Source: Alphaproteobacteria bacterium
GTDB taxonomy: Bacteria; Pseudomonadota; Alphaproteobacteria; GCA-2731375
NCBI GenBank assembly: GCA_016869175.1
Contig: VGEV01000020.1
Coordinates: 1-35,393, forward strand
Direction: 5' to 3'
DNA: 35,393 nucleotides
This document shows positions 7,447 to 23,883 of the stretch, in pieces; position 1 is the stretch's first letter; each line of letters opens with the position of its first letter. Both the position numbers and the translations under genes were made by a program. The notes under the pieces are model-generated. The model did not search any database and was not told the DNA's origin. It saw only the letters and a list, made by a program, of their open reading frames with translations.

Positions 7447-7458
7447 GTCCCGATACCT

Positions 7459-9255
7459 CTATTCGGCCGCTTGCGGCAGCGCCGGCTCGCGCACCACGCT
7501 CGGAATCGCCTTCCAGCCGCGGGCCTGGCGCATTCGGGCGCGAAGCGCCGTCGTCGCCTGGACGTCGACTTCCAGGCGCGCCGGATCGATCACGACCCCG
7601 TAGTCGCGCGCCGCGGCTTCGAGTGTCACGAACTCGTTCTGCACATCCTTGAGCACGCGCCAGGCGTCCCGTTCCAGGGGATCGCCCCAACCGCCGGCGC
7701 CGGCCACCTCGTGGCTGAACAGATCGCCCTTGCGGATGGTCATGGTGAACTTGGAATCGATCAGCTTGGTCGGCCGGCCCTTGGGCGTGAAATAGTTCAT
7801 CGACGGCCGGCCGGGCTCGCCGCCGTACAGCCCGAAGGGCCGGAAAACGCGCCGGTCGGAGCGTACCTGCAGCACGCCCTCGCTCGCGAGGAAGCGATAG
7901 CTGCGCCGGAACGGCGCGCCGCCGCGGAACTTGCCCGGGCCGCCGCGGTCGGCGATGAACTCGTATTGCTCGATCAGGATCGGCTGCTCGATCTCGGTGA
8001 TTTCGACCGATTGCGAGGCCATGTTGGCGTAGAGGTTGGAAATGCCATCCAGGCCGTCGGAATCGGGCCGTCCGCCCCAGGCGGCGCAGGTGAAGTCGAC
8101 ATAGATGAAGGGCGAGCGGTCGGCATGGTAACCGCCGATCGAAATCCCGGTGTTGCCGCCGTCGGAACAGGCGAACACCTTGTCCGGCAGCATTTGCGCC
8201 AGAGCCCCGAACAGCACGTCGATCATGCGAAAGCCGGTCAATCCGCGCGCGGCACAGGCCGCCGGCAGGACGCAATTGGTGATGGTGCCGGGCGGCGACA
8301 CCACCTCAATGGCACGGAACACGCCTTCGTTGTTCGGGATGCCGGCGCCGATGATCGACTGCACCGCGCAATAGACGGCCGACTTGCTGAAGGAGAGCGT
8401 CGCATTGATGGCGCCCTTGACCTGCGGCGACGAGCCGGTCCAGTCGAAGCGGATGCCCTCGCCCTGCTTGACGATGGTGACCTTGATCGGTATCGGCTTG
8501 CCGAAATCGATACCGTCGTCGTCGATATGGTCGGCGAAGCTGAAGGTGCCGTCCGGCAGCTTGGCAATGGCCGCGCGGGTCATCCGCTCGGCATAGTCGA
8601 TCAGTTCATTCATGTAGAACCTGACCTTGGCCTTGCCGTAGCGGTGGCAGAGCTCGACAAAGGCGGTCTCGGCGATGTGGCAGGCCGCGAGCTGGGCGCG
8701 GATGTCGCCACTGACCAGCACCGGCAGGCGCACATTCTTCTCCAGGAAAGCGAAGAAGGTATCGTTGCGCTTGCCCTTCTCGTACATGCGCATGGGCGCG
8801 ATGCGCAGGCCCTCGGCATAGATCTCGGTCGAGTCGGACGCGTTGGAGCCGGCGACCCGGCCGCCGACATCGGTGTGGTGGCAAATCGTGCCGCCGTAGG
8901 CCATCAGTTCGCCATCGACGAAGATCGGCGAGAAAATGAAAATATCGGGCAGATGCATGCCGCCATCGAACGGGTCGTTGAGCACGAAGACATCGCCCGG
9001 ATTTACGTCCTCGCCGAAGCGCTGCTTAATCGCGGCGAGCGCCGAGGGCATCGAGCCGAGATGTCCCGGCAAGGTGAAGCCCTGGGCGACCAGCCGGCCG
9101 GCGTTATCGAAAAACGCCGTCGAGTAGTCCATGTTGTCCTTGAGGACGCCGGAATAGGTTGTGCGATGTATGGTCAACGCCATCTCATCGGCGACCGAGA
9201 GGATCGAGTTCTTGAACAACTCGAACTCGATGGGGTCCACCGCCAGTTCCGCCAT
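7459..9255 (-). CDS. Hydantoinase/oxoprolinase-family protein, B subunit (HyuB type), pair 1
   Basis: 598 aa partner of HyuA1. It begins with the family's DPIEFELFKNSI stretch and has the two conserved motifs NDPFDGGMHLPD (His101, Asp104) and HHTDVGG (His126, Asp129). Their His/Asp residues are candidate metal ligands by analogy with acetone carboxylase; I state this from memory of the family. Late in the protein are the RGGPGKFRGG and AGAGGWGDP stretches typical of HyuB. The ATG at 9255, eight codons inside the longest frame, gives the usual N-terminus and follows a G-rich stretch (GGGGGCGG). It is the first gene of the minus-strand operon hyuB-hyuA-binding protein-permeases-ATPases, and it faces hyuA2 across a 431-base divergent gap. 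Confidence 0.92.
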   Translation of the reverse strand: MAELAVDPIEFELFKNSILSVADEMALTIHRTTYSGVLKDNMDYSTAFFDNAGRLVAQGFTLPGHLGSMPSALAAIKQRFGEDVNPGDVFVLNDPFDGGMHLPDIFIFSPIFVDGELMAYGGTICHHTDVGGRVAGSNASDSTEIYAEGLRIAPMRMYEKGKRNDTFFAFLEKNVRLPVLVSGDIRAQLAACHIAETAFVELCHRYGKAKVRFYMNELIDYAERMTRAAIAKLPDGTFSFADHIDDDGIDFGKPIPIKVTIVKQGEGIRFDWTGSSPQVKGAINATLSFSKSAVYCAVQSIIGAGIPNNEGVFRAIEVVSPPGTITNCVLPAACAARGLTGFRMIDVLFGALAQMLPDKVFACSDGGNTGISIGGYHADRSPFIYVDFTCAAWGGRPDSDGLDGISNLYANMASQSVEITEIEQPILIEQYEFIADRGGPGKFRGGAPFRRSYRFLASEGVLQVRSDRRVFRPFGLYGGEPGRPSMNYFTPKGRPTKLIDSKFTMTIRKGDLFSHEVAGAGGWGDPLERDAWRVLKDVQNEFVTLEAAARDYGVVIDPARLEVDVQATTALRARMRQARGWKAIPSVVREPALPQAAE

Positions 9256-9686
9256 AGCCGCCCCCAATGTCACATGCACGCGCGATCAGCCGGCACTACG
9301 AGAACGAACTGCCGCAGCGGCGGGAAAGATAGCAGGCAGCGGAGGTGTTCGGTAGTCATGCGAGGGTTGCGCGATGCCGCCAGAGTCCTGGCCGTAGAGT
9401 CCCAGCCGTCCCGGACAAGGTCCGATCCGACGACAGGGTCTCGTTCCCAGCATGCAGGCGCACGCGTCCGGTCGCTCCGATCTTCCGGCAGAACAGCCAG
9501 CGTGGCCGGGTTCTCCGCTGGATGCTTGACGGGGTCGGTCGGAGGGTGAGACGCTGAATTCCGACGCTGTGGCCAATGTGCGTGGCTCGGTAGAAGGCCA
9601 TCGGATCGTGCCGCGAAATGGGTGCCGCAGGCGCCAGACTGAAGCCTTCGGCAAATGCTATCGTAACGGTTTCGAGGAGTCGCGGT
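9256..9686. other. Divergent intergenic region between hyuB1 and hyuA2
   Basis: 431 bases without a supportable gene. It must hold the promoter of the minus-strand hyuB1-to-ABC operon and that of the plus-strand hyuA2-hyuB2 pair. GAGGAG at 9674-9679 is the ribosome site of hyuA2. I looked for paired -35/-10 boxes; a TTGACG near 9527 has no acceptable -10 at 16-18 bases, so no promoter is called. Short frames here have arginine- and serine-rich, low-complexity translations and look non-coding. Confidence 0.6.
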
Positions 9687-11723
9687 TTGGCACGGCTGGC
9701 GGCGGATATTGGCGGTACTTTCACGGACCTTGTGCTGTGCGACGATGACGGCAAGGTCACCTTGGTCAAGACGTTTACGACGCCCGACGATCAGTCGGAA
9801 GGGCTTGCCAAAGGCTTTGCGAGGTTCGGTCGGCAAACCGGCAGCATCCAGCATTTCCTTCATGGCACCACGGTCGTTCTGAACGCGATCCTGACCGGCG
9901 CGTGGCCCGTTGTGGGGCTGTTGACCACCCGCGGATTCCGCGATGTTCTGGAGATCATGCGTGGCGACGCGCAGGAGCCCTACAATCTCAAGACGCCGAA
10001 GTCCGCGCCGTTGGTGCCGCGGCGCTTGCGCCTTGAGGTCGAGGAGCGGATGGCCGCCGATGGGGCCGTCCTGACGCCGATCTCCGACGAAGACGTCAGG
10101 CGGCAAGTCGAAGAGTTGCTGCGTCGCGGTGCGGAAGTGGTGGCGGTGTGTTTTTTCAACGCATATGCGAATCCGGCTCACGAGCAAGCGGCCCTGCGGA
10201 TCATCCAGACCGCGTTCCCTGAGTTGCCCGTCTCGATCTCCACCGCCGTCGCGCTCGAATGGCGGGAATTCGAGCGGACCTCAACGGTGGTTCTCAACGC
10301 CGGCGCCCTGCCGGTTGTGCGCCGCTACTTGCAGGTGCTGACGGACCGGCTCCGCTCTTTGTCGATCGACGCGCCGGCGCTCATCATGCAGTCGAACGGC
10401 GGCGTGACGAGCGTGGCGCGCACGCGGATGGCGCCGATCAGGACCGTGATGTCGGGACCGGTGGGCGGTGTCGTCGCCGCGCGCGGCCTTGGCGAAGCGC
10501 TTGCCTTGCGCGATCTGATCACGCTCGACATCGGCGGAACGAGCGCCGATGTGGGACTGGTTCAAGGCGGCGAGCTCGTCACCAAGTATCAAAACAGTGT
10601 TCGAGGATGGCCCATCCTGTCGATGTCCGTCGACGTGCATTCGGTCGGGGCGGGCGGCGGGTCGATCGCGCATCTGGATGAAATGGGTGCCTTCAAAGTG
10701 GGGCCGCGGAGCGCCGCCGCGGTTCCCGGGCCCGCTTGCTTCGGCCGCGGTGGGGAGTTGCCGACGGTCACCGATGCCCATCTCATCGTCGGCAACCTCG
10801 ACCCCGCGTATTTCCTGGGCGGCGAGGTGCCGATCCACCCCGATCGGGCTGCTCGTGCCTTCGAACGGCACATTGCCGCGCCGCTGAACCTCGCCGTGCC
10901 GATCGCGGCGCTGGGCGCCATCGACATCATCAATACCGTCATGGCCACCGCCATCCGTGATCACAGCGTGGTGCGAGGCCACGATCCGCGGGAGTTTGCG
11001 CTGGTGGCGTTCGGCGGCTGCGGCGGCCTCCATGCCTCGCAATTGGCAAGGGCGATCGGCATGCGGACGGTGGTCATTCCGCCAATGTCGTCGGCGTTTT
11101 CCGCCCTGGGTATCCTCGGTTCGGACCTTCGGCGCGATTTCACCCGCACCTATCTCGGCTCGCTTGCGGGCGACATCACGCAGGAATTGGACGGCGCGTT
11201 CGGGCGGCTGGAAGCGGAGGCGAGGGCCGAATTGAGGGCGGACGGAGTCGATCTCCACAACACCGCGATGAGCCGGAGCGTCGACATCCGTTACGTCGGC
11301 CAACAATTCACGATGGACGTCGCCGCGTCCTCGCCGTGCGACCAGAGGGCGATCGCCACTGCCTTCATCCGCGAGCATCGCGCGCTGTACGGCCATGCCA
11401 TGGAAGGCAATGCGATGGAGGTGACCGGCCTTCGCGTGACGGCGATCAGCGCTGTCGGCAAGACGGCGGTGGCGGCGAAGCTGGCGCCGGCGGGCGCGAC
11501 CGCGCGGGCCAAGGGCGAGCGTCGCGTCCTCTACCGTTCCGAGCTCACCGAACGGGCCGAGTGGCTGACCTACCCGGTATTTGATCGGGTGACCCTGCCG
11601 GAAGGGATGCGCCTGCCGGGTCCGGCCATCGTGGAGGAGACCTCGTCGACCACTCTGGTGCTGCCTGGGGACGAGGCGCGCGTGCACGCTTCCGGCAGCC
11701 TCGTCATGACGGTGGGGAGGTGA
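9687..11723 (+). CDS. Hydantoinase/oxoprolinase-family protein, A subunit (HyuA type), pair 2
   Basis: 678 aa ATP-using subunit. The phosphate loop DIGGTFTDLVLCDDDG lies at the very N-terminus; the second motif is LDIGGTSADVGLV, followed by VGAGGGSI and PGPACFGRGG..PTVTDAH. The start is called as TTG at 9687, seven bases after GAGGAG. The frame continues upstream to an ATG at 9618, but that extension has no family similarity and lacks a ribosome site. LDIGGTSAD instead of FDMGGTTAK places this protein in a different branch from HyuA1 and HyuA3. Codon use at the 5' end is less GC-biased: by hand count 15 of the first 50 codons end in A or T, against 4 of 50 in hyuA1. It is tightly coupled to hyuB2. 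Substrate unknown. Confidence 0.9.
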   Translation: MARLAADIGGTFTDLVLCDDDGKVTLVKTFTTPDDQSEGLAKGFARFGRQTGSIQHFLHGTTVVLNAILTGAWPVVGLLTTRGFRDVLEIMRGDAQEPYNLKTPKSAPLVPRRLRLEVEERMAADGAVLTPISDEDVRRQVEELLRRGAEVVAVCFFNAYANPAHEQAALRIIQTAFPELPVSISTAVALEWREFERTSTVVLNAGALPVVRRYLQVLTDRLRSLSIDAPALIMQSNGGVTSVARTRMAPIRTVMSGPVGGVVAARGLGEALALRDLITLDIGGTSADVGLVQGGELVTKYQNSVRGWPILSMSVDVHSVGAGGGSIAHLDEMGAFKVGPRSAAAVPGPACFGRGGELPTVTDAHLIVGNLDPAYFLGGEVPIHPDRAARAFERHIAAPLNLAVPIAALGAIDIINTVMATAIRDHSVVRGHDPREFALVAFGGCGGLHASQLARAIGMRTVVIPPMSSAFSALGILGSDLRRDFTRTYLGSLAGDITQELDGAFGRLEAEARAELRADGVDLHNTAMSRSVDIRYVGQQFTMDVAASSPCDQRAIATAFIREHRALYGHAMEGNAMEVTGLRVTAISAVGKTAVAAKLAPAGATARAKGERRVLYRSELTERAEWLTYPVFDRVTLPEGMRLPGPAIVEETSSTTLVLPGDEARVHASGSLVMTVGR

Positions 11724-11728
11724 CGACC

Positions 11729-13495
11729 GTGAACCAGCCCGATCCGGTCGTCGTCGAGGTCATCCGCAACCGGCTCGCCTCCGTGCTGTTCGCCGGCTCC
11801 ATTGCCCTCAAGAGGGCCGCCTACAGCACCGTCATCACGGAGGCGGACGACTTCAGCATTGCGATCTTCGACACGCGATGCCAATTGGTCGCCCAACTCG
11901 ACCAGTTGCCGATCTTCCTGGGGGCGATGCCGGAGCCGCTGCGCACCTTCGTCGACAAGTTCTCCTACGACGAGATGCAGCCGGGAGACGTCTACATCTC
12001 GAACGATCCGTTCACCGCCGGCGGCACCCACAAGAACGACATCAACATCATGGTCCCCGTCTTCGTGCAGGGGATATTGCGGCTGCTCGTCATGAGCAAG
12101 GCGCACTGGAGCGACATCGGCGGCAAATCGCCCGGGAGTTGGTCACCGGACGCCACGACATCGTTCGAAGAAGGGCTGTCGATCCCGTCGATCCGCCTGA
12201 TCAAGGCCGGCCAGCTCAACCAGGACGTCCTGGATCTGGTCCTTGCGAACACGCGGCTGCAGACCAACAACAAGGGCGACCTTCTGGCCCAGATATCGGG
12301 ATGCCACGTCGTCATCCGGGGCCTGGACGAGCTGTTCCGCAAATACGATTGGGAACTCTTCAGCGCCGTGTACAACACCATTCTCGACCGGACCGAGGCG
12401 CTTGTCCGCCGGCACATCTCGGACATCCCCGACGGCGTGTACCGGGGCTTCGAGCAGGTGGACGACGACGGGGTCAATTCGGGTCCGATCCCCATCGATC
12501 TGGACGTCATCATCGAAGGTTCGTCGTTGACGGTCGATTTTTCGCGCTGTCCGCCGCAGGCCGATGGCGCTTGCGGCAACTCCTCGTATGCGCGGACTCT
12601 CTCGATGGTGCGCACGGCCGTGCGGTCCCTGACGGCGATCAACGTGCCCAGCAACGAAGGATATTTCCGACCGATCCGCGTGGTCGCGCCTCCAGGCTCG
12701 GTGGTGCATCCGGTCGCGCCAGCGCCGGTCACTCTCGGCAATCATGTCGCGCGCGCCCTGCGCGAGGCGATTGTCAGCGCTCTTTCCCAGGCTATTCCGG
12801 ACCGGGTCGTCGCCGGCCAATTCGGCGGTGCGCTGACCATGATCATGAGCGGAGCCGACACCGCGCGAAATCGCGAATTCATCTATGTCAGCCCATATGC
12901 CGGCGGCTGGGGCGCCGGCTGCCGCCATGACGGCACCTTCCCGCTGATGATGCTGGAGGGGGGGCGAATGCGGAACGTCCCTTGCGAGGTCGTGGAGCAG
13001 CTCTATCCCCTGCGGGTGGAGAGCTACGCGCTTCGGCCGGACAGCGGCGGTCCCGGGGAGTGGCGCGGAGGATTGGGGATTCAGACGGACTTGCTGGTGC
13101 TGGCGCCCGAGCTTCGCCTCTCCGTCGCCATGGACCGACATCGGTTTCCCGCGCCGGGCCTGTTCGGCGGCGAGAACGGAGCCCACAGCAGGCTTTTCGT
13201 GCACGACGGCAACCAGGACTGGCGAGAGATCACCAAGGTGGCAGGCTATCGGCTCAGCCGCGGCAGCCTGATTTCGCATCGTTCCGGCGGTGGCGGCGGC
13301 TTCGGGCCCCCGCGCGCTCGCGATCCGGCCCGCGTTCTCGCCGATGTCGTCGCCGGATATGTGACGCCCGAGAGCGCCCGGGACCGCTTCGGCATCGTCA
13401 TTGTGGACGGCCAGGTCGACGCGGAAAACTCCAAGTCTCTGCGCGAGGGCCAAGTCGAACCATCGCCACGTCGTCGACGACCGGCCGGACTGTGA
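11729..13495 (+). CDS. Hydantoinase/oxoprolinase-family protein, B subunit (HyuB type), pair 2
   Basis: 588 aa partner of HyuA2, carrying both conserved motifs, NDPFTAGGTHKND (His101, Asp104) and HWSDIGG (His126, Asp129), plus the late RPDSGGPGEWRGG and GGGGGFGPP stretches. Two starts are possible. A GTG at 11720 overlaps the hyuA2 stop (GTGA), but GGGGAGG at 11714-11720 is correctly spaced only for the GTG at 11729, which is therefore preferred; the difference is three residues. A relic of an IS21-type transposase lies about 35 bases past the stop on the other strand, so this pair may have arrived with, or been disturbed by, a mobile element. Which substrate the A2B2 enzyme handles is unknown. 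Confidence 0.9.
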   Translation: MNQPDPVVVEVIRNRLASVLFAGSIALKRAAYSTVITEADDFSIAIFDTRCQLVAQLDQLPIFLGAMPEPLRTFVDKFSYDEMQPGDVYISNDPFTAGGTHKNDINIMVPVFVQGILRLLVMSKAHWSDIGGKSPGSWSPDATTSFEEGLSIPSIRLIKAGQLNQDVLDLVLANTRLQTNNKGDLLAQISGCHVVIRGLDELFRKYDWELFSAVYNTILDRTEALVRRHISDIPDGVYRGFEQVDDDGVNSGPIPIDLDVIIEGSSLTVDFSRCPPQADGACGNSSYARTLSMVRTAVRSLTAINVPSNEGYFRPIRVVAPPGSVVHPVAPAPVTLGNHVARALREAIVSALSQAIPDRVVAGQFGGALTMIMSGADTARNREFIYVSPYAGGWGAGCRHDGTFPLMMLEGGRMRNVPCEVVEQLYPLRVESYALRPDSGGPGEWRGGLGIQTDLLVLAPELRLSVAMDRHRFPAPGLFGGENGAHSRLFVHDGNQDWREITKVAGYRLSRGSLISHRSGGGGGFGPPRARDPARVLADVVAGYVTPESARDRFGIVIVDGQVDAENSKSLREGQVEPSPRRRRPAGL

Positions 13496-13715: not shown

Positions 13716-13824
13716 TCATCGGTGGATTGTTCACGCCAGCCGCGTCGCTTGAGCACGGCCGCCGTACTTGGCCCGGCCCCCCGTGCCCCATCGGGGCCGC
13801 CAAGACCACAGGGAGATCGTTCGC

Positions 13825-15102
13825 ATGGTGGAACCGAACCAGCTCACGGCGATCCAGGCCGCGACACGAATTCGCAATGGCGAGCTCACTTCGGAGGCCC
13901 TCGTTCGTGCCTGTCTGGCACGCATCGAGGAGCGCGAGGCAGCCGTCGCCGCCTGGGAGTATCTCAATCCGGCGCAGGCCGTCGCGCAGGCAAGGGCCTG
14001 CGACCGCATGAGCGAGCGGGGCGCCTTGCACGGCGTGCCCGTCGGCTTCAAGGACATCTGCGACACCGCGGACATGCCGACGACCTATGGCTCGCGGGCG
14101 CATCTCGGCCATCGCCCGACGATCGACGCCACCTGCGTTGCGCTGACCCGCACGGCCGGCGGGGTTGTCCTGGGCAAGACGGTGAGCACGGAATTCGCCG
14201 GGCGCCATGCCGGCAAGACCGCCAATCCGCACGATCCCCTGCGCACGCCGGGCGGCTCGTCCAGCGGTTCGGCGGCGGCGGTCGCCGATTACATGGTGCC
14301 GTTGGCGACCGCCACCCAGACCGGTGGGTCGGTCATTCGGCCAGCCGCCTATTGCGGCGCCTTCGGCTACAAGGCGACCTTTGGCCATCTCAGTTTCGAG
14401 GGCATCCGGCACGGCGCGGAGACGTTCGACACGCTGGGCTGCATGGCGCGCTCGGTCGAGGATCTGGCGCTGTTTCGCGCGGTGCTGATGGGCGTGCGAC
14501 CGGAGCCGCTGCAAGCGCCGGGCGCTGCGCCCCGCATCGCCTTCTGCCGGACCTTCCGTTGGGAGGAGGCCGACGACGCCACGCGGCGCTGCCTGGAAGC
14601 CGCCGCCCAGAGGTTGCGGCGCGCGGGCGCGGCGGTATCCGACCTCGCGCTGCCCAAGCCGTTCGCGGACATTTACGATCTCGCCTGGACGATCATGCAC
14701 TTCGAGTATGCGCGCAATGTCAGCCCCGAATGGCGCGAGCAGCCCGACAACGTGTCGTCGGCGATGCGCAAGATGATCGACGCCTCGGCGGAAATTCCCC
14801 TCGCGCGCTATCTCGCGGCGCTCGAGCGCATCGACCGCCTGCGGGCGGAGATCCAGGAAATCGCCTCGGGTTACGATGCGTTCCTGACACCGAGCGCCAT
14901 CGGCGAGGCGCATGTCGGCCTCAACGACACCGGGCCGGTCACCTTCAACGTGATCTGGAACGCCATGGGCATGCCCTGCATCACCATCCCGGCGTTCAAG
15001 GGACCGAACGGAATGCCGATCGGCGCCCAGTTCGTCGCTGCGCGCCATCGCGACGGGGCGTTGTTCGACGTCGCCGGCTGGGCGGCGGCCCGGCTGATGT
15101 AA
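13825..15102 (+). CDS. Amidase (amidase signature family)
   Basis: 425 aa hydrolase of carboxamides to acid plus ammonia or amine, presumably cytoplasmic (no signal peptide). The Ser-cisSer-Lys triad is visible: Lys76 in PVGFKD, Ser145 in GGSSSGS and nucleophile Ser169 in TQTGGSVIRP. These spacings equal those of malonamidase E2 (Lys62, Ser131, Ser155) shifted by 14. The start is the ATG at 13825, eight bases after GGGAGAT; an upstream in-frame start would add 19 unrelated residues. It stands alone on the plus strand, with its stop ten bases from the end of the convergent hydrolase gene. In this context it could open an amide released by, or parallel to, the HyuA/HyuB reaction. The substrate is unknown; GatA is unlikely because gatB and gatC are absent. 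Confidence 0.9.
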   Translation: MVEPNQLTAIQAATRIRNGELTSEALVRACLARIEEREAAVAAWEYLNPAQAVAQARACDRMSERGALHGVPVGFKDICDTADMPTTYGSRAHLGHRPTIDATCVALTRTAGGVVLGKTVSTEFAGRHAGKTANPHDPLRTPGGSSSGSAAAVADYMVPLATATQTGGSVIRPAAYCGAFGYKATFGHLSFEGIRHGAETFDTLGCMARSVEDLALFRAVLMGVRPEPLQAPGAAPRIAFCRTFRWEEADDATRRCLEAAAQRLRRAGAAVSDLALPKPFADIYDLAWTIMHFEYARNVSPEWREQPDNVSSAMRKMIDASAEIPLARYLAALERIDRLRAEIQEIASGYDAFLTPSAIGEAHVGLNDTGPVTFNVIWNAMGMPCITIPAFKGPNGMPIGAQFVAARHRDGALFDVAGWAAARLM

Positions 15103-15111
15103 GCGCTCGCC

Positions 15112-15951
15112 TCAGCCCCGCCACGAGCCCCAGCGTCCGCAGTCGACCGCCGAAAGAAAGCCGTCGACGAGGGCGTTGAAGGCCTCCGGCTCTTCGGTGT
15201 TCAGCGTGTGCCCGGTCCAGGGCAGAACGGCAAGTCCCACATGCGGCGCGGTGCGGGCGATGAACACGCTGGCCTCGAAGGCGGGCAGGTCCTGATCGCC
15301 GACGGCGACCAGGACCGGCATCGGCAGCCGGGCGATCTGGTCCTTGAGTTCGAAGACCGGGCGCCGCTGCATCAACGCGTTGGCCATCAGGTGGGCGCTG
15401 CCGACCGGCGAGAAGTCGCGCATCTGCGACAGGAATTCGTGCCATGCCCGCGGGTCCTTCACCCGCAACGCCTGGCGCTGCGGCGCGGCCTCGATGTTGG
15501 ACACCAGGCCGGCCATGCCTTGGCTCGCGATGGCATCGGACAGGGCCTGCGCGCCCTTGAGCCAGCGCTCGCGATCGACCGATCCGGCGCCGGCGCCGGC
15601 CACGACCACGGCGCGCGCCATCTGGGGATGCGCGATGGCGAAATTCAATGCGACATTCCCGCCCGTCGCCAGGCCGACGACATGGGCCTGTGTGGCGCCC
15701 GCATGCAGGAGCACGCAACGCAGGTCCTCGACCAGCGCGTCGTGACTGTAGGCCTCACGCGTTCCCGGCACCTGCGATGGCGGATAGCCACGATTGTTGT
15801 AGGTGATGACCCGGTATTTCCGGGCGAAATGGCGGACCTGCGGCTCCCACGCCCGCATGTCGCTGGCGAATTCGTGGCTGAAGATGACGGGAAATCCCGT
15901 GCCGCTCACCTCATAGTGGATCTCGCATTCCCTGGCTGCCGCCTTGGGCAT
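15112..15951 (-). CDS. Alpha/beta-hydrolase-fold protein lacking the nucleophile serine
   Basis: 279 aa. It has the fold's landmarks: FSHEFA (oxyanion region), WEPQVRHFARKYRVI, an acid in GDQD (Asp221) and TGHTLNTEEPEAFN (His248). The nucleophile elbow, however, reads GLATGG, with Ala95 (codon GCG, bases 15667-15669) where the Ser of G-x-S-x-G is expected. The rest is not degraded, so it may be a non-catalytic or changed-function protein rather than a pseudogene. It is clearly paralogous to the intact hydrolase at 19150-20031, which reads GLSMGG. The start at 15951 follows GGGAGAG; a longer frame to 16029 adds 26 residues of unrelated sequence. It is divergent from dctP and convergent with the amidase. 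Confidence 0.85.
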   Translation of the reverse strand: MPKAAARECEIHYEVSGTGFPVIFSHEFASDMRAWEPQVRHFARKYRVITYNNRGYPPSQVPGTREAYSHDALVEDLRCVLLHAGATQAHVVGLATGGNVALNFAIAHPQMARAVVVAGAGAGSVDRERWLKGAQALSDAIASQGMAGLVSNIEAAPQRQALRVKDPRAWHEFLSQMRDFSPVGSAHLMANALMQRRPVFELKDQIARLPMPVLVAVGDQDLPAFEASVFIARTAPHVGLAVLPWTGHTLNTEEPEAFNALVDGFLSAVDCGRWGSWRG

Positions 15952-16120: not shown

Positions 16121-16241
16121 CGCGCGTAAGGCGCGTCGGGGAAGCGCGCGCCAATCATCGCCGTCGGGCAACCTTGCGGTCGCTGGTTGCGCGCAATCGC
16201 GATCGCACGGCCGCCGCGCCGGGCCGAACAGGGGGAGATTG

Positions 16242-17225
16242 ATGATCGGACGGTTCTCGCTGACGATCGCCGTCGTCGCTGCCGGCATCGCCTGGACGGG
16301 CATGGCACTGGCGCAACAGAAGATCACGCTGCGCATCGGCCATGTCACCTCGCTGCAGGGCATCACCGGCCAGGGCTCGACCAAGCTCAAGGAAGTGGCC
16401 GACAAGTTGTCGAATGGCGCCATTCAGGTCGAGATCTTTCCCAACGGCCAGCTGGGCGGCGAGCTCGAGATGGTCTCGCAGGTGCGCCTGGGCACGCTCG
16501 ACATGGGGATTATCGGCTCAGGCATCGTGGCGGCGATCGAGCCGACCTTCAGCCTCACCGAATTGCCGTTCATCTGGAAGTCGGGCGAGGCGGCCTGGAC
16601 GGTCCTGAACGGGCCGATCGGCCAGAAGGTGCAGGCGCTGCTCGAGCCCAAGGGCATCAAGGGCCTCGGCTGGGGGGTTTGGGGCTTTCGCGGCTTTCTC
16701 ACCAACGGCTTCGACGTCCAGACACCCGACGATCTCAAGGGCAAGAAGATCCGGGTGATCGAGAATCCGCTTTATGTGCGTACCATCCGCGCCTATAGCG
16801 GCAACCCGGTGCCGATGGCCTGGCCCGAGGTCTATTCCGCGTTGCAGCAGAAGACAATCGACGGCGTCGAGACCAATTACTATGGCATGACCGACGCCAA
16901 GCTGTTTGAGGTGGCGAAGAACCTTACCGTCACCGACCATATCTGGACGGCGACTGTCTTCATAATCAACCTCAAGAAGTACCAGTCGCTGTTGGCCGAG
17001 CATCAGAAGATCATCGAGCAGGCGGCGCGAGAGGGCGGCGCGGTGATGAATGCGGGCGCCAAGAAGTCGAACGATGATGCGATCGACCAAATCGAGAAGG
17101 CGGGCGGCAAGATCATCCGCGCGGATCGCGCGGCTTTCGGCAAGGCGGTTGAGCCGGTGCACAAGTATTTCGCCAACCTGGTAGGGCAGGATTTGCTCGA
17201 CGAGGTCGCCGCCGCCCAGAAATAG
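16242..17225 (+). CDS. TRAP transporter solute-binding protein (DctP family)
   Basis: 327 aa periplasmic receptor of a tripartite ATP-independent transporter, which typically captures carboxylates. A Sec signal peptide spans residues 1-24, ending ALA before QQKITLRIGH. Family landmarks are NGQLGGELEMVSQVRLGTLDM, the KKIRVIENPLY stretch with the arginine that normally binds the ligand carboxylate, and PMAWPEVYSALQQKTIDGVE. The start is the ATG at 16242 after GGGGGAGA (short spacing); an in-frame TTG one codon earlier is less likely. It is the first gene of dctP-dctQ-dctM. The receptor class points to an organic acid, in keeping with uptake or scavenging of an acid related to the neighbouring hydrolases; the ligand itself is unknown. 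Confidence 0.93.
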   Translation: MIGRFSLTIAVVAAGIAWTGMALAQQKITLRIGHVTSLQGITGQGSTKLKEVADKLSNGAIQVEIFPNGQLGGELEMVSQVRLGTLDMGIIGSGIVAAIEPTFSLTELPFIWKSGEAAWTVLNGPIGQKVQALLEPKGIKGLGWGVWGFRGFLTNGFDVQTPDDLKGKKIRVIENPLYVRTIRAYSGNPVPMAWPEVYSALQQKTIDGVETNYYGMTDAKLFEVAKNLTVTDHIWTATVFIINLKKYQSLLAEHQKIIEQAAREGGAVMNAGAKKSNDDAIDQIEKAGGKIIRADRAAFGKAVEPVHKYFANLVGQDLLDEVAAAQK

Positions 17226-17285
17226 CGACGCCGTCAGCCGCGGGCGGCCACGCCATTGGTCCCGCCGCCGGAAGAACTGGTTGCC

Positions 17286-17852
17286 ATGGTGCTCGTGTTG
17301 GCGGCGCTCGCGGCGTGGTTCGCCTGGACGCTGCGCGGGGATTGCCGCAAGGCCGATGGCCGCTTCGACCCGTGGGCGGCGTTCGAGACCTATGTCAGCC
17401 TGTTCCTGATGCTGTGCATGCTCATGTCCTCGGTGGCACAGGTCCTGGTGCGCTACCTGTTCTCCGATCTCGTCGACCTGCCCTGGACCGAGGAGTTCGG
17501 ACGGCTGGCGCTGATCTGGGCCGGGTTCTGGGGGGGCGCGGCGCTGCAACGGGCCGATGACCATATCAGCATGACCGTGGTCTTCGACCTGCTGCCCGAG
17601 CGCGCGAAGCTTGCCGTGCGTCTGTTCGGTGACATCGTCACCTTGGCGGTGTTGGCGCCCATTGTCTGGCTGGGCTGGGAGTCGGCGCGCAATCTCGACA
17701 TCATGCACGCGATCTCGCTGGGCTTGCCGCTTTCGGTCTTCGCCTATCCGGTGCCGGTGGCGGGCGCGCTGATGGTGCTGCACACCGTGGCGCTGATGGT
17801 GCGGCGATTGACCGGGCGGCCGCCGGTTCGGCACCTCGAGCCGGCGGTCTAG
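17286..17852 (+). CDS. TRAP transporter small permease (DctQ family)
   Basis: 188 aa inner-membrane subunit that bridges the binding protein and the large permease. Five hydrophobic segments are visible: MVLVLAALAAWFAWTL, then YVSLFLMLCMLMSSVAQVLV, IWAGFWGGAAL, FGDIVTLAVLAPIVWLGW and YPVPVAGALMVLHTVALMV. The first is an extra N-terminal segment compared with the usual four-helix DctQ. The conserved WTEEFGRLALIW and DDHISMTVV stretches are present. The ATG at 17286, about nine bases after GGAAGAA, is preferred; a TTG ten codons upstream keeps the frame but lacks a ribosome site. It lies between dctP and dctM, three bases from dctM. Confidence 0.88.
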   Translation: MVLVLAALAAWFAWTLRGDCRKADGRFDPWAAFETYVSLFLMLCMLMSSVAQVLVRYLFSDLVDLPWTEEFGRLALIWAGFWGGAALQRADDHISMTVVFDLLPERAKLAVRLFGDIVTLAVLAPIVWLGWESARNLDIMHAISLGLPLSVFAYPVPVAGALMVLHTVALMVRRLTGRPPVRHLEPAV

Positions 17853-17855
17853 CGC

Positions 17856-19145
17856 ATGGGGTCGCTCGGCTACGTGCTGCTGGTCTTTTTCGGGTTGTTC
17901 GCGCTGCGGCTGCCGATCGCCGTCGTGCTCATCGCCTCGACCATCGTCGGCCTGCTGCTGGCCCCCGCCCAGATTCCGCTCGCCACCCTGCCGACCACGC
18001 TGTGGCACGGGGTGAACCACTTCGTGCTGATGGCGATCCCGTTCTTCATCCTGATGGGCGACCTGGCGCTGGCGAGCGGCGTGACGAAGCGGCTGGTCGA
18101 CCTGACCAAGGCCTTCGTCGGCCATATCGCGGGTGGCCTTGCCCATGTCAGCGTGCTGGTCAACATGGTGATGGCGGGCATGTCCGGTTCGGACCTGGCC
18201 GACGCCGCGGCCACCGGCAAGCTGCTGATCCCGGCCATGCAGCGCTCCGGCTATCCGACCGGTTATGCCGCTTCGATCATCGCCGGCGCGGCGATGATCG
18301 GACCGCTGATTCCGCCCAGCATCGCCTTCATCATCTTCGCCGCGGCGACGGATACTTCGGTCGGGCGGCTGTTCCTGGGCGGGGCCATCCCCGGGGTGAT
18401 GCTCGGCGTCTTCCTGATGCTGCAGGCTTATTTCGTGGCGCGTCGCAACGGCTATCCGCGCGAGCCCCGCATGCCCTACCGCGAGCGTGTGCGGGCGACC
18501 GCGCTCGGCCTGCCGGTCCTGGCGATCCCGGTGATCGTGTTGGGCAGCATACTGGCCGGCGTCGCCACGCCGACCGAGGCCGCGGTGCTGGGCGTCCTGG
18601 GGGTGATCATCATCGGCGCGCTCTATCGTGAACTCAGCGTCGCGGTGTTCGCCCGCCAATGCCTTGCGACCATTCGCACCATCGGCGCGGTGTTCCTCAT
18701 CATCGCCGCCGCCGCCGCCTTCGGCCGCGTGCTGACGCTTTACGGCGCGGCGGAATCCCTGGCGCAGTGGATGACCGGCCTAACCACGAATCCATTGCTC
18801 TTCCTGCTCGGGGCGAACGTGGTCTTCCTGCTGCTTGGCGGCATGATCGACACCGTGCCGATCCTGCTGGTCTTCGTGCCGTTGCTGATGCCGACGGTGG
18901 CGGCGCTGGGCATCGACACCGTGCATTTCGGCGTCATCACCGTGTTCAACCTGCTGGTCGGCCTCGTCACGCCGCCCTATGGCCTGACCATGTACCTGCT
19001 ATGTCGACTGTCAGGCATCGGCATGCTGGAATTCTGGCGCTACCAGTGGCCGATCTTTCTGACCATGCTGTTCGCGCTCGGCCTGGTGACGGTATTCCCT
19101 TGGCTCACCACCTACCTGCCCGACCTTGTGATGCCGGTGCGTTGA
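17856..19145 (+). CDS. TRAP transporter large permease (DctM family)
   Basis: 429 aa membrane protein that forms the sodium-driven translocation pathway. Many hydrophobic helices cover the whole length. Family landmarks are FILMGDLALASGVTKRLV, the MSGSDLADAAATGKLLIPAM stretch, MIGPLIPPSIAFIIF and, near the end, LLVGLVTPPYGLTMYLL. Length is normal. It begins three bases after dctQ and ends four bases before the stop of the convergent hydrolase gene, leaving no room for a long terminator. With dctP and dctQ it makes a complete transporter. Confidence 0.94.
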   Translation: MGSLGYVLLVFFGLFALRLPIAVVLIASTIVGLLLAPAQIPLATLPTTLWHGVNHFVLMAIPFFILMGDLALASGVTKRLVDLTKAFVGHIAGGLAHVSVLVNMVMAGMSGSDLADAAATGKLLIPAMQRSGYPTGYAASIIAGAAMIGPLIPPSIAFIIFAAATDTSVGRLFLGGAIPGVMLGVFLMLQAYFVARRNGYPREPRMPYRERVRATALGLPVLAIPVIVLGSILAGVATPTEAAVLGVLGVIIIGALYRELSVAVFARQCLATIRTIGAVFLIIAAAAAFGRVLTLYGAAESLAQWMTGLTTNPLLFLLGANVVFLLLGGMIDTVPILLVFVPLLMPTVAALGIDTVHFGVITVFNLLVGLVTPPYGLTMYLLCRLSGIGMLEFWRYQWPIFLTMLFALGLVTVFPWLTTYLPDLVMPVR

Positions 19146-19149
19146 GGCC

Positions 19150-20031
19150 TCAACGCATGCCGGAGATGCCGTCGCTCGCCGTGCGGGGATCGCGCATGGG
19201 CCAGCGGCCGGCATCCACCTGGGCGAGGAAGTCGGCAAGCGCGGCGTTGAAGGCAACGGGCTCTTCCAGGTTGATCGTGTGACCGGAATTGGGGATCACC
19301 AGCAGGCCGGCGGAGGGAATGGCGCGCTTCAGGAAAATGCTGGGGTTTAGGCAGGGCTGGTCCTCGTCGCCGGTCAGCACCAGGGTCGGCACGGTCAGCT
19401 TGCGCAGCCGGTCCTCCAGATCGTAGAGCGACGGCCGTTCCTTCAGCACGCCCAACAGGGTTTGGGCCGCGCCCTTGGCCGAATGCCCGGACAGCATGCG
19501 CTTGAACTCGGCAAAGCCGCGGGGGTCCTTGTCCTCGAACTGCACCCGCGTCGGACCTTGGACGTAGGCCGCGGCGAACCGCTCCATTCCGTCGATCTCG
19601 ATCTTGGCGGCCATGTCCTCGGCTTCCTTCCGGACCTTCGCGCGCTGGTCCTTCTCCGCCCCGTAGCCGCAACCCGCAACCAGCAGCGAGCGCGCGCGTT
19701 CGGGGTAGTTCAGGCCGAAATGCAGCGCGGCAAAACCGCCCATCGACAGGCCCACGACATGCGCCCTGTCGATCCTGAGCGCGTCAAGCACGGCCTTCAC
19801 ATCCTCGCAAGCCCGCTGCTGGGAGTATTGCGAGACCGCATCCGGCACGTCCGACGGCGGCACGCTACGCGCGTTGAAGATGATACAGCGATAGCGCCGC
19901 GCGAAGTGTCGGACCTGCGGCTCCCAGCTGCGAAGGCTGCCGGCGAATTCGTGGATGAAGAGGACGGGCGTGCCGCCGGCGGTTTCCTCGAGATAGAGCT
20001 TCACGCCGTCATCGGTCGTGAGAAAGGGCAT
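19150..20031 (-). CDS. Alpha/beta hydrolase with intact catalytic triad
   Basis: 293 aa, with nucleophile Ser96 in GLSMGG, acid Asp224 in GDEDQP and His251 in SGHTINLEEP. It resembles enol-lactonase/esterase-like hydrolases but the substrate is not identifiable. It shares with the protein at 15112-15951 the HEFA oxyanion region, WEPQVRHFAR, PPS.VP, the strand before the nucleophile (HVVGL) and the ending VD.GRW, so the two are paralogues. The ATG follows GGGAGG four bases upstream. It is the last gene of the minus-strand operon hyuA3-hyuB3-hydrolase, 18 bases after the hyuB3 stop, which suggests that it acts on the product of that pair or a related ester or lactone. Confidence 0.9.
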   Translation of the reverse strand: MPFLTTDDGVKLYLEETAGGTPVLFIHEFAGSLRSWEPQVRHFARRYRCIIFNARSVPPSDVPDAVSQYSQQRACEDVKAVLDALRIDRAHVVGLSMGGFAALHFGLNYPERARSLLVAGCGYGAEKDQRAKVRKEAEDMAAKIEIDGMERFAAAYVQGPTRVQFEDKDPRGFAEFKRMLSGHSAKGAAQTLLGVLKERPSLYDLEDRLRKLTVPTLVLTGDEDQPCLNPSIFLKRAIPSAGLLVIPNSGHTINLEEPVAFNAALADFLAQVDAGRWPMRDPRTASDGISGMR

Positions 20032-20049: not shown

Positions 20050-21765
20050 TCAGCGGCCAGCGCGCAGGCGCCTGGTCTCGGCCTCGTCGATCGCCTCGCC
20101 GGTGGTCGTCAGCGCCACGCCGTAGGCCGCGTGCGCCCGCTCGCGCGAAACGTAGCCATCGCGAATGTCGGCGAGCACGGCTAGCGGGGTTCGCTCGTGC
20201 GGATCGCCATAGCCGGCACCGCCAGAGCAGCGCACGGAATAGAGGTCGCCCGGCTTGAGACTGAGGGTCTTCTTGGAATGCACCGCCGCGCCATTGACCG
20301 AGACGGAAGCGGCGGCGCCCGGTCCGCCGCCAAACAGGCCCAGCGGGGGATGCTTGATGCGGTCCAGGCGCACGCCGATCGTGATCGGCTCGGCCGCGGC
20401 CGAACGCACCGTCAGGCCCTGTGCCAGGCCGCCGCGCTGTCGGCCGGCGCCACCGGAATCGGCCAGAAGCTCCTTTTCCAGGAACAGCAGCGGCTTTTCG
20501 TTCTCGGTCACCTCCACCGGCAGACCGGCGATATTCGCCGGCCAGCCGATCGACGAGATGCCATCCATGTTGGGTCTCGCTCCCAGGCCGCCATTGAGGA
20601 ACATGATGTCGACATAGCGCCGCCCGCCATTGCCGATACCCATGTAGGCCGAGAGGTGCGGCGGCGTCCCGGTCTCGGCGATGACGCGCTCGGGCACCGC
20701 CTGCGCCAGGGTGCGGAAAATCAAGCCTTGCAGGTACATCGAGACCAAGGCACGGGCGCCCAGCGCCGCGGGGTAGGTCGCGTTGATGACCGATCCTTCG
20801 GGCGCGCTGAAGCGGATGCGCTTCAGCATCGCCCCGTTCACCGGCGAAGCCGGCCGGGCGACGCAGACGCAGGCATGCGCAACCTCGGCGAACGACCAGC
20901 GCTTCGTGCAGTTGATTCCATGTTCGTCCTGCGGCGAGCAGCCCGTGCAGTCGATCTCGATCTCGTCGCTGCGGACCGTGATCGCGCAGCGCAGCGTGAT
21001 CGGCCGCTCGAAGCCGTCGGCCTCCGTCTCGCCGTGGTAGGTCCCGGGCGGGATCTTGGCGATCGCCTGACGCATGGCCAGGTCCGAACGCTCCCATACC
21101 TGGGCGAACAGCGCGTCGGCGTCGTCCAGCTTCCGGGCCTCGAGGAACTCGACCAGGCGGCGGGCCATGATGGTGTTGGCCGCGAGTTGCGCCATCAGGT
21201 CACCGACGACGATCTCGGGAACCCGTACGTTGAGCCGGATGATGCGGAACAGATCCTCATTGGGCTCGCCGCGGCGGAACAGCTTGACGATCGGCAGTCG
21301 GAAACCCTCTTCGAACACCTCCTTGGAATCGGCCGAAAGCAGCCGCCCGCCCACATCGGGCGAATGCGACACACTCATCGCATAGGCGACGATGCGCCCG
21401 CGATGGAAGATCGGCGTCACGAAGAACACGTCGTTGATCTGGCTGGCGCCGATCCACGGGTCGGTGGTGATCAGGCTGTCGCCCGGCTCAAGCGTCTGCG
21501 GCGGACAGGCCGCGATGAAGTCGTGCAGCGCTTGCGCCATGCAGCCCAGAAAGGCCGGCAGTCCGTGCCGGCCCTGCGCCACCATTTCCCCCTTGGTGTC
21601 GAACAGCGCACAGCTGAAATCCCAGGCTTCGGTGACGATGCGCGAGAAGGCCGTGCGCAGCAGCGTCACCTGCGCCTCGTCCACGATGGTCAGCAGTTTG
21701 TTCCACGCCATTGTCAGCGTGGTGGCGTCGAGCGCCGTGGTCCGCGTCTGCAACATCGCCGTCAT
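20050..21765 (-). CDS. Hydantoinase/oxoprolinase-family protein, B subunit (HyuB type), pair 3
   Basis: 571 aa partner of HyuA3. The second family motif, HSPDVGG (His134, Asp137), is present. The first reads TDPWIGASQIND, with Gln109 where HyuB1 and HyuB2 have His (GGMH, GGTH). Late stretches LADSGGAGRQRGG and SGGAGYGDP are typical of HyuB. The start is taken at the ATG whose ATGA overlaps the hyuA3 stop; AAGGG directly before it is better spaced for an ATG three codons later, so 21756 is an alternative. The frame upstream of 21765 is the end of hyuA3 in another phase. It is the second gene of the operon hyuA3-hyuB3-hydrolase. Substrate unknown. Confidence 0.9.
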   Translation of the reverse strand: MTAMLQTRTTALDATTLTMAWNKLLTIVDEAQVTLLRTAFSRIVTEAWDFSCALFDTKGEMVAQGRHGLPAFLGCMAQALHDFIAACPPQTLEPGDSLITTDPWIGASQINDVFFVTPIFHRGRIVAYAMSVSHSPDVGGRLLSADSKEVFEEGFRLPIVKLFRRGEPNEDLFRIIRLNVRVPEIVVGDLMAQLAANTIMARRLVEFLEARKLDDADALFAQVWERSDLAMRQAIAKIPPGTYHGETEADGFERPITLRCAITVRSDEIEIDCTGCSPQDEHGINCTKRWSFAEVAHACVCVARPASPVNGAMLKRIRFSAPEGSVINATYPAALGARALVSMYLQGLIFRTLAQAVPERVIAETGTPPHLSAYMGIGNGGRRYVDIMFLNGGLGARPNMDGISSIGWPANIAGLPVEVTENEKPLLFLEKELLADSGGAGRQRGGLAQGLTVRSAAAEPITIGVRLDRIKHPPLGLFGGGPGAAASVSVNGAAVHSKKTLSLKPGDLYSVRCSGGAGYGDPHERTPLAVLADIRDGYVSRERAHAAYGVALTTTGEAIDEAETRRLRAGR

Positions 21766-23849
21766 CCCTTCAGCGAGATCGCCAGCATGCGTAACTCGTC
21801 GATCCATGCCCGCGCGCCGGGTGGGACGACCGCTGTCGATTCATGGTCCTCGATGATCGCCGGCCCGCCGATCTCGGCCCCGGGAGCCAGTCGGTTGCGC
21901 TCGTAGACCGGGCAGTCGACCGCCGGGCCGCCGTCAGGGAAGACAACCGGTCGGCGTCCCTTCAAGGCCTGTCCGGCATCCCCGCTCGCCGGCCAGGTGA
22001 CGGCGAGTTCGGGGGTCGGCCCCGACACCGTGAGGCGCCAGCTCACCGTCTCCACCGGCACCTCGCGTATGTCGCGGCCATAGTGCTGGCGGTAGGCCGC
22101 ATAGAAGTCGTCATGCAGACGATCCAGCAGTTCGGGCCCCAGCGGCCCGGCGGGCAGCGGGACGTTCACCTCGTAGCGCTGGCTGAGATAGCGCATGTCG
22201 GCCGAGAAGCGCGCACTCACGTCGGCGACAATGCCGGCCTCGGCCAGGTGCTGGCGACCCTCGCGTTCCATCGCGGCGAAGCGGGCATTGACGCTGTGCC
22301 AGTCCACCAGCTTCAGCTCGCGCATGTAACCGAACACGTAGTCAAACGAGAACGGCGAAGCGAGACAGCCGAGCGCCGAAAGCACGCCGGCGGCGAAAGG
22401 CACGCGCACCTCGCGAATGCCGATGCGCCGGGCCACGTCGCAGGCATGCGCCGGCGCCGCCCCACCGAACGCCAGCAGGGTGAAGTCGCGCAAGTCCACG
22501 CCCTGTTCGGCGGCATAGACCGAGGCCGCGTTCGCCATGTTGTCGTTCACGACCTCATAGATGCTGCGCGCGGCGCCGGTCGCGTCGGTTCCCAGTGCCT
22601 TGCCGACATTCTCGGCCACCGCCACGGCGGCCTGCTCGGGATGCAGCTTCATCTTGCCGCCCAGGAAATAGCCGGCGTCGAGGTAGCCCAGAAGCAAGTC
22701 GGCGTCGGTCACCGTCGGCAGCGTGCCGGCGGTGCCGTAGCAGGCCGGCCCGGGAACCGCGCCGGCGCTGTCCGGGCCCACGTTGAGCAGGCCCAGCGCG
22801 TCCACCCGCGCGATGCTGCCGCCGCCCGCGCCGATCTCGATCAGGTCCACCGCCGGCGCCTTCAGCAACAGACCGCTGCCCTTCTGGAACCGCCGCACCC
22901 GCGCCACCTCCAGTTCGGTCGTGCGCGTCGGCTTCCCGTCGACGATCAGCGAGATCTTCGCCGTGGTGCCGCCCATGTCGAAGGCCATGACATTGGGCGC
23001 GCCCAGGCGCCCGGCATAGTGCGCCGCGATCGACACGCCGGCGGCCGGGCCCGATTCCACCAGCCGAACCGGAAAGGCGCGCGCCAGGTCCAGGCTCAAG
23101 GTGCCGCCGTTCGAGCCCATCACGAAGAAGGCCCCGCGCGAGCCTCGCGTCCGCAACGCCCCGGCCAGCTCGCTCAAATAGCGCGCCACCAACGGCTGAA
23201 CATAGGCATTGGCCGCGGTGGTCGAAACCCGGCCGTATTCCCCGATTTCCGGCAGCACGCGCGAGGACAGCGTGAGCGAAAGCTCTGGCCGGGTCGCCTG
23301 GATGACACGCGCCGCCGCCTCTTCGTTGGCCGGGTTGGCGTAAGCGTGCAGGAAGCACACGGCGATCGCCTCCACGCCCTCAGATCGCAGGGCCTCGAGC
23401 GCCGCTAGCACCTCGGCCTCGTCGAGCGGCGTCAGCACCTTGCCGTCATAGCGGGTGCGCTCGGTGACGCCGATCCGCCGGCGGCGCGGGATCAGCGGTT
23501 CGGGAAATGCGATGAACAGATCGTGCAGGTCGTAGCGCATCTCGGTCGCGGTCTCCAGCGCGTCGCGGAAGCCGCGCGTGGCCAGCAGCGCGGTGCGTGC
23601 GCCCTTGCGTTCGATGATGGCGTTGGTCGCCAGCGTCGTGCCGTGCACGATCGTGCGCACCGCGGGGTGCGCGGCCTGGGCCTGGCCCAACACCTGGTCC
23701 ACGGCCGTCAGCACCGCCTGCTCGGGCTGCCCAGGCGTGGTCAGCACCTTGGCCGAATGAACCCGGCCGGTCCGCTCGTCCACCAGGATCACGTCGGTGA
23801 ACGTGCCGCCGATGTCCACGCCAATGGCGAAGTGCTTGTCTGTATCCAC
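21762..23849 (-). CDS. Hydantoinase/oxoprolinase-family protein, A subunit (HyuA type), pair 3
   Basis: 695 aa ATP-using subunit. It has the phosphate loop IGVDIGGTFTD near the N-terminus, FDMGGTTAKISLI, IGAGGGSI and PGPACYGTAG.LPTVTDAD, and LAFGGAAPAHACDVARR near the middle of the C-terminal half. FDMGGTTAK groups it with HyuA1 rather than HyuA2. Two GTG starts lie nine bases apart: GAGAGG is flush with the GTG at 23858 but well placed for the GTG at 23849, so the latter is used. It is the first gene of its operon and is divergent from the hydrolase/monooxygenase pair. An ATP-dependent ring-opening or carboxylating reaction with HyuB3 is the family expectation. Confidence 0.92.
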   Translation of the reverse strand: MDTDKHFAIGVDIGGTFTDVILVDERTGRVHSAKVLTTPGQPEQAVLTAVDQVLGQAQAAHPAVRTIVHGTTLATNAIIERKGARTALLATRGFRDALETATEMRYDLHDLFIAFPEPLIPRRRRIGVTERTRYDGKVLTPLDEAEVLAALEALRSEGVEAIAVCFLHAYANPANEEAAARVIQATRPELSLTLSSRVLPEIGEYGRVSTTAANAYVQPLVARYLSELAGALRTRGSRGAFFVMGSNGGTLSLDLARAFPVRLVESGPAAGVSIAAHYAGRLGAPNVMAFDMGGTTAKISLIVDGKPTRTTELEVARVRRFQKGSGLLLKAPAVDLIEIGAGGGSIARVDALGLLNVGPDSAGAVPGPACYGTAGTLPTVTDADLLLGYLDAGYFLGGKMKLHPEQAAVAVAENVGKALGTDATGAARSIYEVVNDNMANAASVYAAEQGVDLRDFTLLAFGGAAPAHACDVARRIGIREVRVPFAAGVLSALGCLASPFSFDYVFGYMRELKLVDWHSVNARFAAMEREGRQHLAEAGIVADVSARFSADMRYLSQRYEVNVPLPAGPLGPELLDRLHDDFYAAYRQHYGRDIREVPVETVSWRLTVSGPTPELAVTWPASGDAGQALKGRRPVVFPDGGPAVDCPVYERNRLAPGAEIGGPAIIEDHESTAVVPPGARAWIDELRMLAISLKG

Positions 23850-23883
23850 TCGGTCCACCCTCTCGCGAACTATCCATCATCAT

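Follow-up and report, generated by a model that had tools for sequence, protein, structure and literature searches.

Alpha/beta hydrolases that lack the catalytic Ser are known, and RutD, AqdC, and ShMKS1 serve here as references for comparison. RutD of Escherichia coli (PDB 3v48) has Ala at the nucleophile elbow (GHALGA in strain K-12), retains the downstream His, and is encoded in a pyrimidine utilisation operon together with an amidohydrolase and the flavin monooxygenase RutA, which belongs to the LLM class. RutD has been proposed to accelerate a reaction that proceeds spontaneously as well, and it is dispensable in the laboratory (PMC8113886). The cofactor-free 3-hydroxy-4-quinolone 2,4-dioxygenases AqdC and HOD use a His-Asp dyad in N-heterocycle catabolism, and the elbow Ser is dispensable; specifically, AqdC naturally has Ala at the elbow, while in HOD, in which the acid is Asp126, the S101A substitution leaves kcat unaffected and raises KM 60-fold (PMC10548524). 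Finally, methylketone synthase 1 (ShMKS1), a member of the plant MES family, decarboxylates 3-keto acids with an Ala-His-Asn arrangement (PMC11644291), and a review lists carboxy-lyases that need no Ser and rely on a D/E-H dyad (PMC11878206). Here, we analysed P0002, an alpha/beta hydrolase-fold protein with Ala at the elbow, which is encoded in a 35,393-nucleotide stretch of DNA (contig VGEV01000020.1 of the Alphaproteobacteria bacterium assembly GCA_016869175.1; from here on, the window). With its three orthologues, P0002 apparently represents an independent and uncharacterised case of Ser loss.

The P0002 gene lies on the minus strand at 15112-15951 (coding sequence 15951-15115, stop codon 15114-15112) and encodes 279 residues without internal stop codons. 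Pfam recognizes only the hydrolase fold (Abhydrolase_1, 1e-16), and a scan for promoters and terminators around the gene returned nothing that clearly exceeded the shuffled expectation. Codon 95 is GCG (15667-15669), placing Ala95 in the context G-L-A-T-G-G-N where all other inspected subfamily members have Ser; the following codons (15655-15666) encode Thr96-Gly97-Gly98-Asn99. In the AlphaFold2 model (pLDDT 90.5, pTM 0.90), residue 95 occupies the turn that joins strand 89-94 to helix 96-107, while Asp221 (15289-15291) and His248 (15208-15210) follow strands 213-218 and 238-243, respectively; these are therefore the canonical positions of nucleophile, acid, and base. Thus, direct reading of the codons and the model agree with the preliminary description of this DNA, which had reported an intact frame with Ala at the elbow and the acid and base retained. 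P0002 has the features of the alpha/beta hydrolase fold superfamily, i.e. an elbow after strand 5, an acid after strand 7, and a His after strand 8, but lacks the Ser, Cys, or Asp nucleophile at the elbow by which a covalent hydrolase of the serine type is defined.

Like RutD, AqdC, and ShMKS1, P0002 lacks the nucleophile and has kept the base. The likeness to RutD extends to Ala at the elbow (GLATGG in P0002) and to a setting among genes for nitrogen compounds; however, the two proteins match at only ~43 bits by phmmer, and P0002 scores 73.4 against the RutD model TIGR03611, for which the cut-off is 238.5. A rutABCDEFG-type gene order is absent from the window locus, where the neighbours are TRAP, amidase, and Hyu genes, and the LLM protein of the window matched no RutA model in NCBIfam. 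In phylogenetic trees, the proteins with Ala fall within a Ser-containing subfamily and RutD outside it, so that two changes are needed; this suggests that Ser was lost separately in the two lineages, with the qualification that the RutD branch is very long and its exact place unsure. HOD (L057:11551-12381) matches the subfamily profile at 20 bits over its N-terminal part only and differs in the acid, Asp126 as opposed to the Asp after strand 7 in P0002, and an assignment of P0002 to the HOD/AqdC group was therefore rejected. ShMKS1 is likened to P0002 by residues (Ala at the nucleophile position, His kept) and not by sequence relation, belongs to a plant family, and has Asn where the Ala-His-Asp of P0002 has Asp. 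By sequence and fold, the solved relatives of P0002 include lactonases, esterases, and MenH-like enzymes, and PcaD-like 3-oxoadipate enol-lactonases and the lactonase Est816 (5egn, 2xua) are among its nearest characterised neighbours. Because PcaD-like lactonases and Est816 use a Ser nucleophile where P0002 has Ala95, and because P0002 reaches 94.8 bits with the PcaD model TIGR02427 against a cut-off of 255.85, it was not assigned to PcaD either.

As for the persistence of Ala95, one orthologue was found by a genome-contig scan (JADZED010000054.1, hereafter L021, in G756, a metagenome-assembled genome named Acidobacteria), and two more (in G025 and G108) in a sample of 385 genomes of the window's class. 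These three orthologues, from three other genomes, are 61% (L021), 62%, and 54% identical to P0002 (range 54-62%), and all three have intact frames, A-T-G-G-N at the elbow, and the His and Asp; none has Ser, the finding that, according to the preliminary description, would have spoken against a stable loss. Within the class sample and two phylum samples, which were capped in size and overlap one another, there were no Ala members beyond these four proteins; the 386 genomes sampled from L021's own phylum are included in this result. Searches by gene order added nothing around the window locus and reached two genomes around the G108 locus and one around that of G025. The preliminary description had proposed a dN/dS test, and pN/pS was 0.42-0.64, but with saturated synonymous sites and a GC3 bias these ratios mean little. 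In its place, we used a test of codon identity at conserved residues: between the window and L021, 91 codons were identical compared to 87.1 expected at saturation (sd 5.9), the largest excess was 119 versus 108.0 (sd 6.0; L021 and L037), and across the Ala pairs codon identity equalled the saturated expectation or lay within ~2 sd of it. Because residues are shared even though synonymous sites are close to saturation, the shared residues, Ala included, have been maintained by selection. The stable loss of Ser suggested in the preliminary description is thus supported: every orthologue found has both Ala and the Thr next to it, and all fall in one clade.

Relatives with Ser provide the background for this conservation. 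Ser was present at the elbow of all of the ~30 more distant homologues inspected (~33-44% identical). These comprise one homologue from each of 14 further genomes in the window's family, two paralogues in the window's own genome (that at 19150-20031 and G000:C16), proteins from additional genomes of the class, one homologue from L021's phylum, and the three plasmid-encoded relatives in which the elbow was read. Because the three orthologues have A-T-G-G-N while 17 of 17 aligned Ser-type representatives have S-M at positions 95-96, the Ala elbow is more than a chance substitution. The maximum-likelihood tree unites the four Ala proteins in a single clade (bootstrap 97, SH-aLRT 86; present in 96% of bootstrap trees) on a long stem of 0.9 changes per column, so that Ser changed to Ala once in the subfamily; the tree does not settle which Ser relative is closest to this clade. 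Despite its phylum label, L021 is the sister of the G108 protein, and G108 belongs to the window's class, which points to either lateral transfer or a misbinned contig.

With only four Ala sequences, ~42% of columns are invariant and any one column is weak evidence, and for this reason our argument rests on the pattern of change and not on the Ala column by itself. The 17 Ser representatives agree at 51 positions. All Ala proteins retain the same residue at 37 of these, with H26-E27-F28, D219, H248, and N251 among them, while 11, including S95 and M96, are lost in four of four; Asp221 is likewise kept in all four Ala proteins, and His248 is common to these and to all 17 Ser representatives. 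In this fold, the H26-E27-F28 loop lines the oxyanion hole. The substitutions in the elbow and pocket that accompany the Ala clade are S95A, M96T, F99N, H103N, Y122A, and A53Y/N, such that T96, N99, N103, A122, and L193 are among the newly fixed residues, position 53 has become Tyr or Asn, and Thr96 and Asn99 of the Ala clade correspond to Met96 and Phe/Tyr99 of the Ser clade. A decaying gene is unlikely to have retained base, acid, and oxyanion loop and at the same time to have fixed other residues anew; hence, judged from the alignment, the pattern looks like remodelling with base and acid retained.

In the window, the Ala gene is convergent with a plus-strand gene for an amidase-signature protein (13768-15102; PF01425, 1.3e-72) and divergent from the first of three plus-strand TRAP transporter genes, encoding the solute-binding protein DctP (16239-17225; PF03480, 4.8e-74), the small permease DctQ (17256-17852; PF04290, 9.1e-28), and the large permease DctM (17856-19145; PF06808, 2.2e-105). 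Immediately beyond lies the close paralogue with G-L-S-M-G-G (19150-20031, minus strand; ~3.2 kb from the Ala gene), as the preliminary description had stated, which is 41% identical to P0002 over 267 residues and is followed on the same strand by a HyuB/HyuA-type hydantoinase/oxoprolinase pair (20050-23858; PF02538, PF01968). Two more HyuA/HyuB pairs are at 5317-9279 (minus strand) and 9618-13495 (plus strand, upstream of the amidase gene). HyuA/HyuB relatives include an ATP-dependent caprolactamase (PMC6061476), and the HyuA of the 5317-9279 pair is nearest to the caprolactamase alpha model; because it falls below the cut-off of that model, we name no substrate. With three HyuA/HyuB pairs within 19 kb, a Dpp-type ABC importer, the TRAP transporter, the amidase, and an LLM monooxygenase, the window is a dense catabolic island.

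In G025 and G108, the Ala gene is located between dctP, directly upstream, and dctQ on one strand, followed by dctM; the identities to DctP, DctQ, and DctM of the window are 70, 54, and 76% in G025 and 57, 47, and 66% in G108. Altogether, the Ala gene is beside or inside a TRAP cluster with the Ser paralogue 3-18 kb away in three of the four genomes, and G108 has HyuA/HyuB genes at a distance of ~25 kb from the Ala gene. On the L021 contig, where we found no TRAP genes, the Ala gene is likewise in convergent orientation with a gene for an amidase (52% identical to that of the window) and is near an NMT1-type transporter, so that an amidase gene faces the Ala gene in two of the four genomes. 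On plasmids, the genes of Ser members form operon-like runs with genes for aminotransferases, SDR proteins, and M20 proteins or carbamoylases; one such run also includes a nucleoside phosphorylase gene and deoC. What these neighbourhoods share is the import and degradation of small compounds that often contain nitrogen. That distant relatives have the same Ser loss beside similar uptake genes argues for a stable protein rather than a broken gene, and, as far as comparison of sequences allows, the Ala95 protein is a stable product that probably still works as an enzyme or a binder.

Based on these findings, our main reading, to which we assign a probability of roughly 0.55, is that P0002 belongs to a stable Ser-less clade and is most likely catalytic, with a putative non-covalent activity that depends on His248 and Asp221. 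Because the nucleophile is gone, an acyl-enzyme cannot form at residue 95, while the His-Asp base and the oxyanion site remain. The clade would have arisen from the Ser-containing subfamily through a single elbow substitution accompanied by changes around the pocket; the His248-Asp221 dyad may serve as a general base or shuttle protons, while a carboxylate, enolate, or carbamate may be bound in the oxyanion site, which is made up of the Thr96 backbone NH and the H26-E27-F28 loop. The reaction would then proceed without a covalent acyl-enzyme, as a decarboxylation, a C-C or C-N lyase step, or the addition of water to an unstable intermediate generated by the products of the neighbouring uptake, amidase, and hydantoinase genes, and the protein would function in the catabolism of imported, probably nitrogen-containing compounds, with its substrate arriving via the TRAP transporter. 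We infer catalysis, the class of reaction, and a TRAP-imported substrate from the retained residues and the gene context; several points speak against this reading, namely that His and Asp could also serve ligand binding or structure, that the acid of ShMKS1 is Asn instead of Asp, that P0002 belongs neither to RutD nor to HOD/AqdC, and that the linked genes differ between loci. More tentatively, the Ala proteins could represent a new Ser-independent class of enzymes on the alpha/beta hydrolase fold that is coupled to TRAP uptake, evolved independently of RutD, AqdC, and ShMKS1, and contributes to the degradation of a lactam, a hydantoin, or another N-heterocycle by a decarboxylation, a lyase step, or the breaking of a carbamate.

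The preliminary description had listed substrate binding, regulation of the active paralogue, and a reaction not needing Ser as roles for a protein that has stably lost this residue. The last of these agrees best with the data, given that both the His-Asp dyad and the oxyanion loop have been retained. The main alternative, which we consider rather unlikely, is that P0002 is a pseudoenzyme that binds an imported compound or a pathway intermediate without turnover and stores, delivers, or senses it for the TRAP system. In line with this idea, the fold has outlasted the nucleophile and the gene lies within or next to the TRAP cluster in three of the four genomes, and binding, scaffolding, and non-enzymatic roles have been proposed for alpha/beta-hydrolase-fold proteins that lack catalytic residues (PMC11878206). 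On the other hand, all four proteins retain His248, Asp221, and the H-E-F loop, Pfam finds no DNA-binding or membrane domain, and the L021 contig has the Ala gene without a TRAP gene.

Regulation of, or partnership with, the Ser paralogue at 19150-20031, e.g. in a heterodimer with one active subunit, fared less well, and we consider it doubtful. The two genes are close to each other in the window, and orthologues of the paralogue (65-67% identical) lie within ~5 kb of the Ala gene in G025 (66-67%) and 17-18 kb from it in G108 (65%); but G756 has the Ala gene and, at E<=1e-40, no orthologue of the paralogue (this genome may be incomplete), most genomes with a Ser protein have no Ala protein, the TRAP genes of the window separate the two genes and are on the other strand, and the G025 pair is on opposite strands. 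It is improbable that the nucleophile was replaced, with Thr96 or another hydroxyl residue taking over in an ordinary covalent hydrolase: in favour of this idea, every Ala protein has Thr at position 96 where the Ser clade has Met, but in the AlphaFold2 model Thr96 begins the helix that follows the elbow, and the residue at this place in the alpha/beta hydrolase fold normally serves through its backbone NH. Lastly, although a single base change from TCG to GCG, as noted in the preliminary description, would suffice for a decaying copy, a recent mutation, or a sequencing error, these are ruled out for all practical purposes by the three orthologues, which have the same residue in three other assemblies with intact frames and a protein conserved despite nearly saturated synonymous sites.

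The Ala proteins and their close Ser relatives (~40% identical, including one in the same cluster) form a natural before/after pair for the loss of the nucleophile and the possible gain of new chemistry, and the changes that accompany the Ala clade provide a defined set for testing. Names derived from the fold, such as hydrolase or enol-lactonase, may mislead for this clade. Three further observations were made in the course of the analysis. The genome from which the window originates also encodes, at G000:C32:1554-1886 (L018), an alpha/beta-hydrolase-like segment with G-H-Q-G-G, i.e. Gln, at the expected nucleophile position within a 725-residue open frame. In G025, a fusion of a caspase domain with an FGE-sulfatase domain (L038:5538-7739) is encoded between the Ser paralogue and dctM. 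Finally, a plasmid of Rhizobium sp. CB3060 (L076:4020-9526) carries a homologue 33% identical to P0002 in a run with genes for an aminotransferase, an SDR protein, a hydantoinase/carbamoylase, a nucleoside phosphorylase, and deoC, suggesting a function of this gene run in nucleoside or pyrimidine breakdown.
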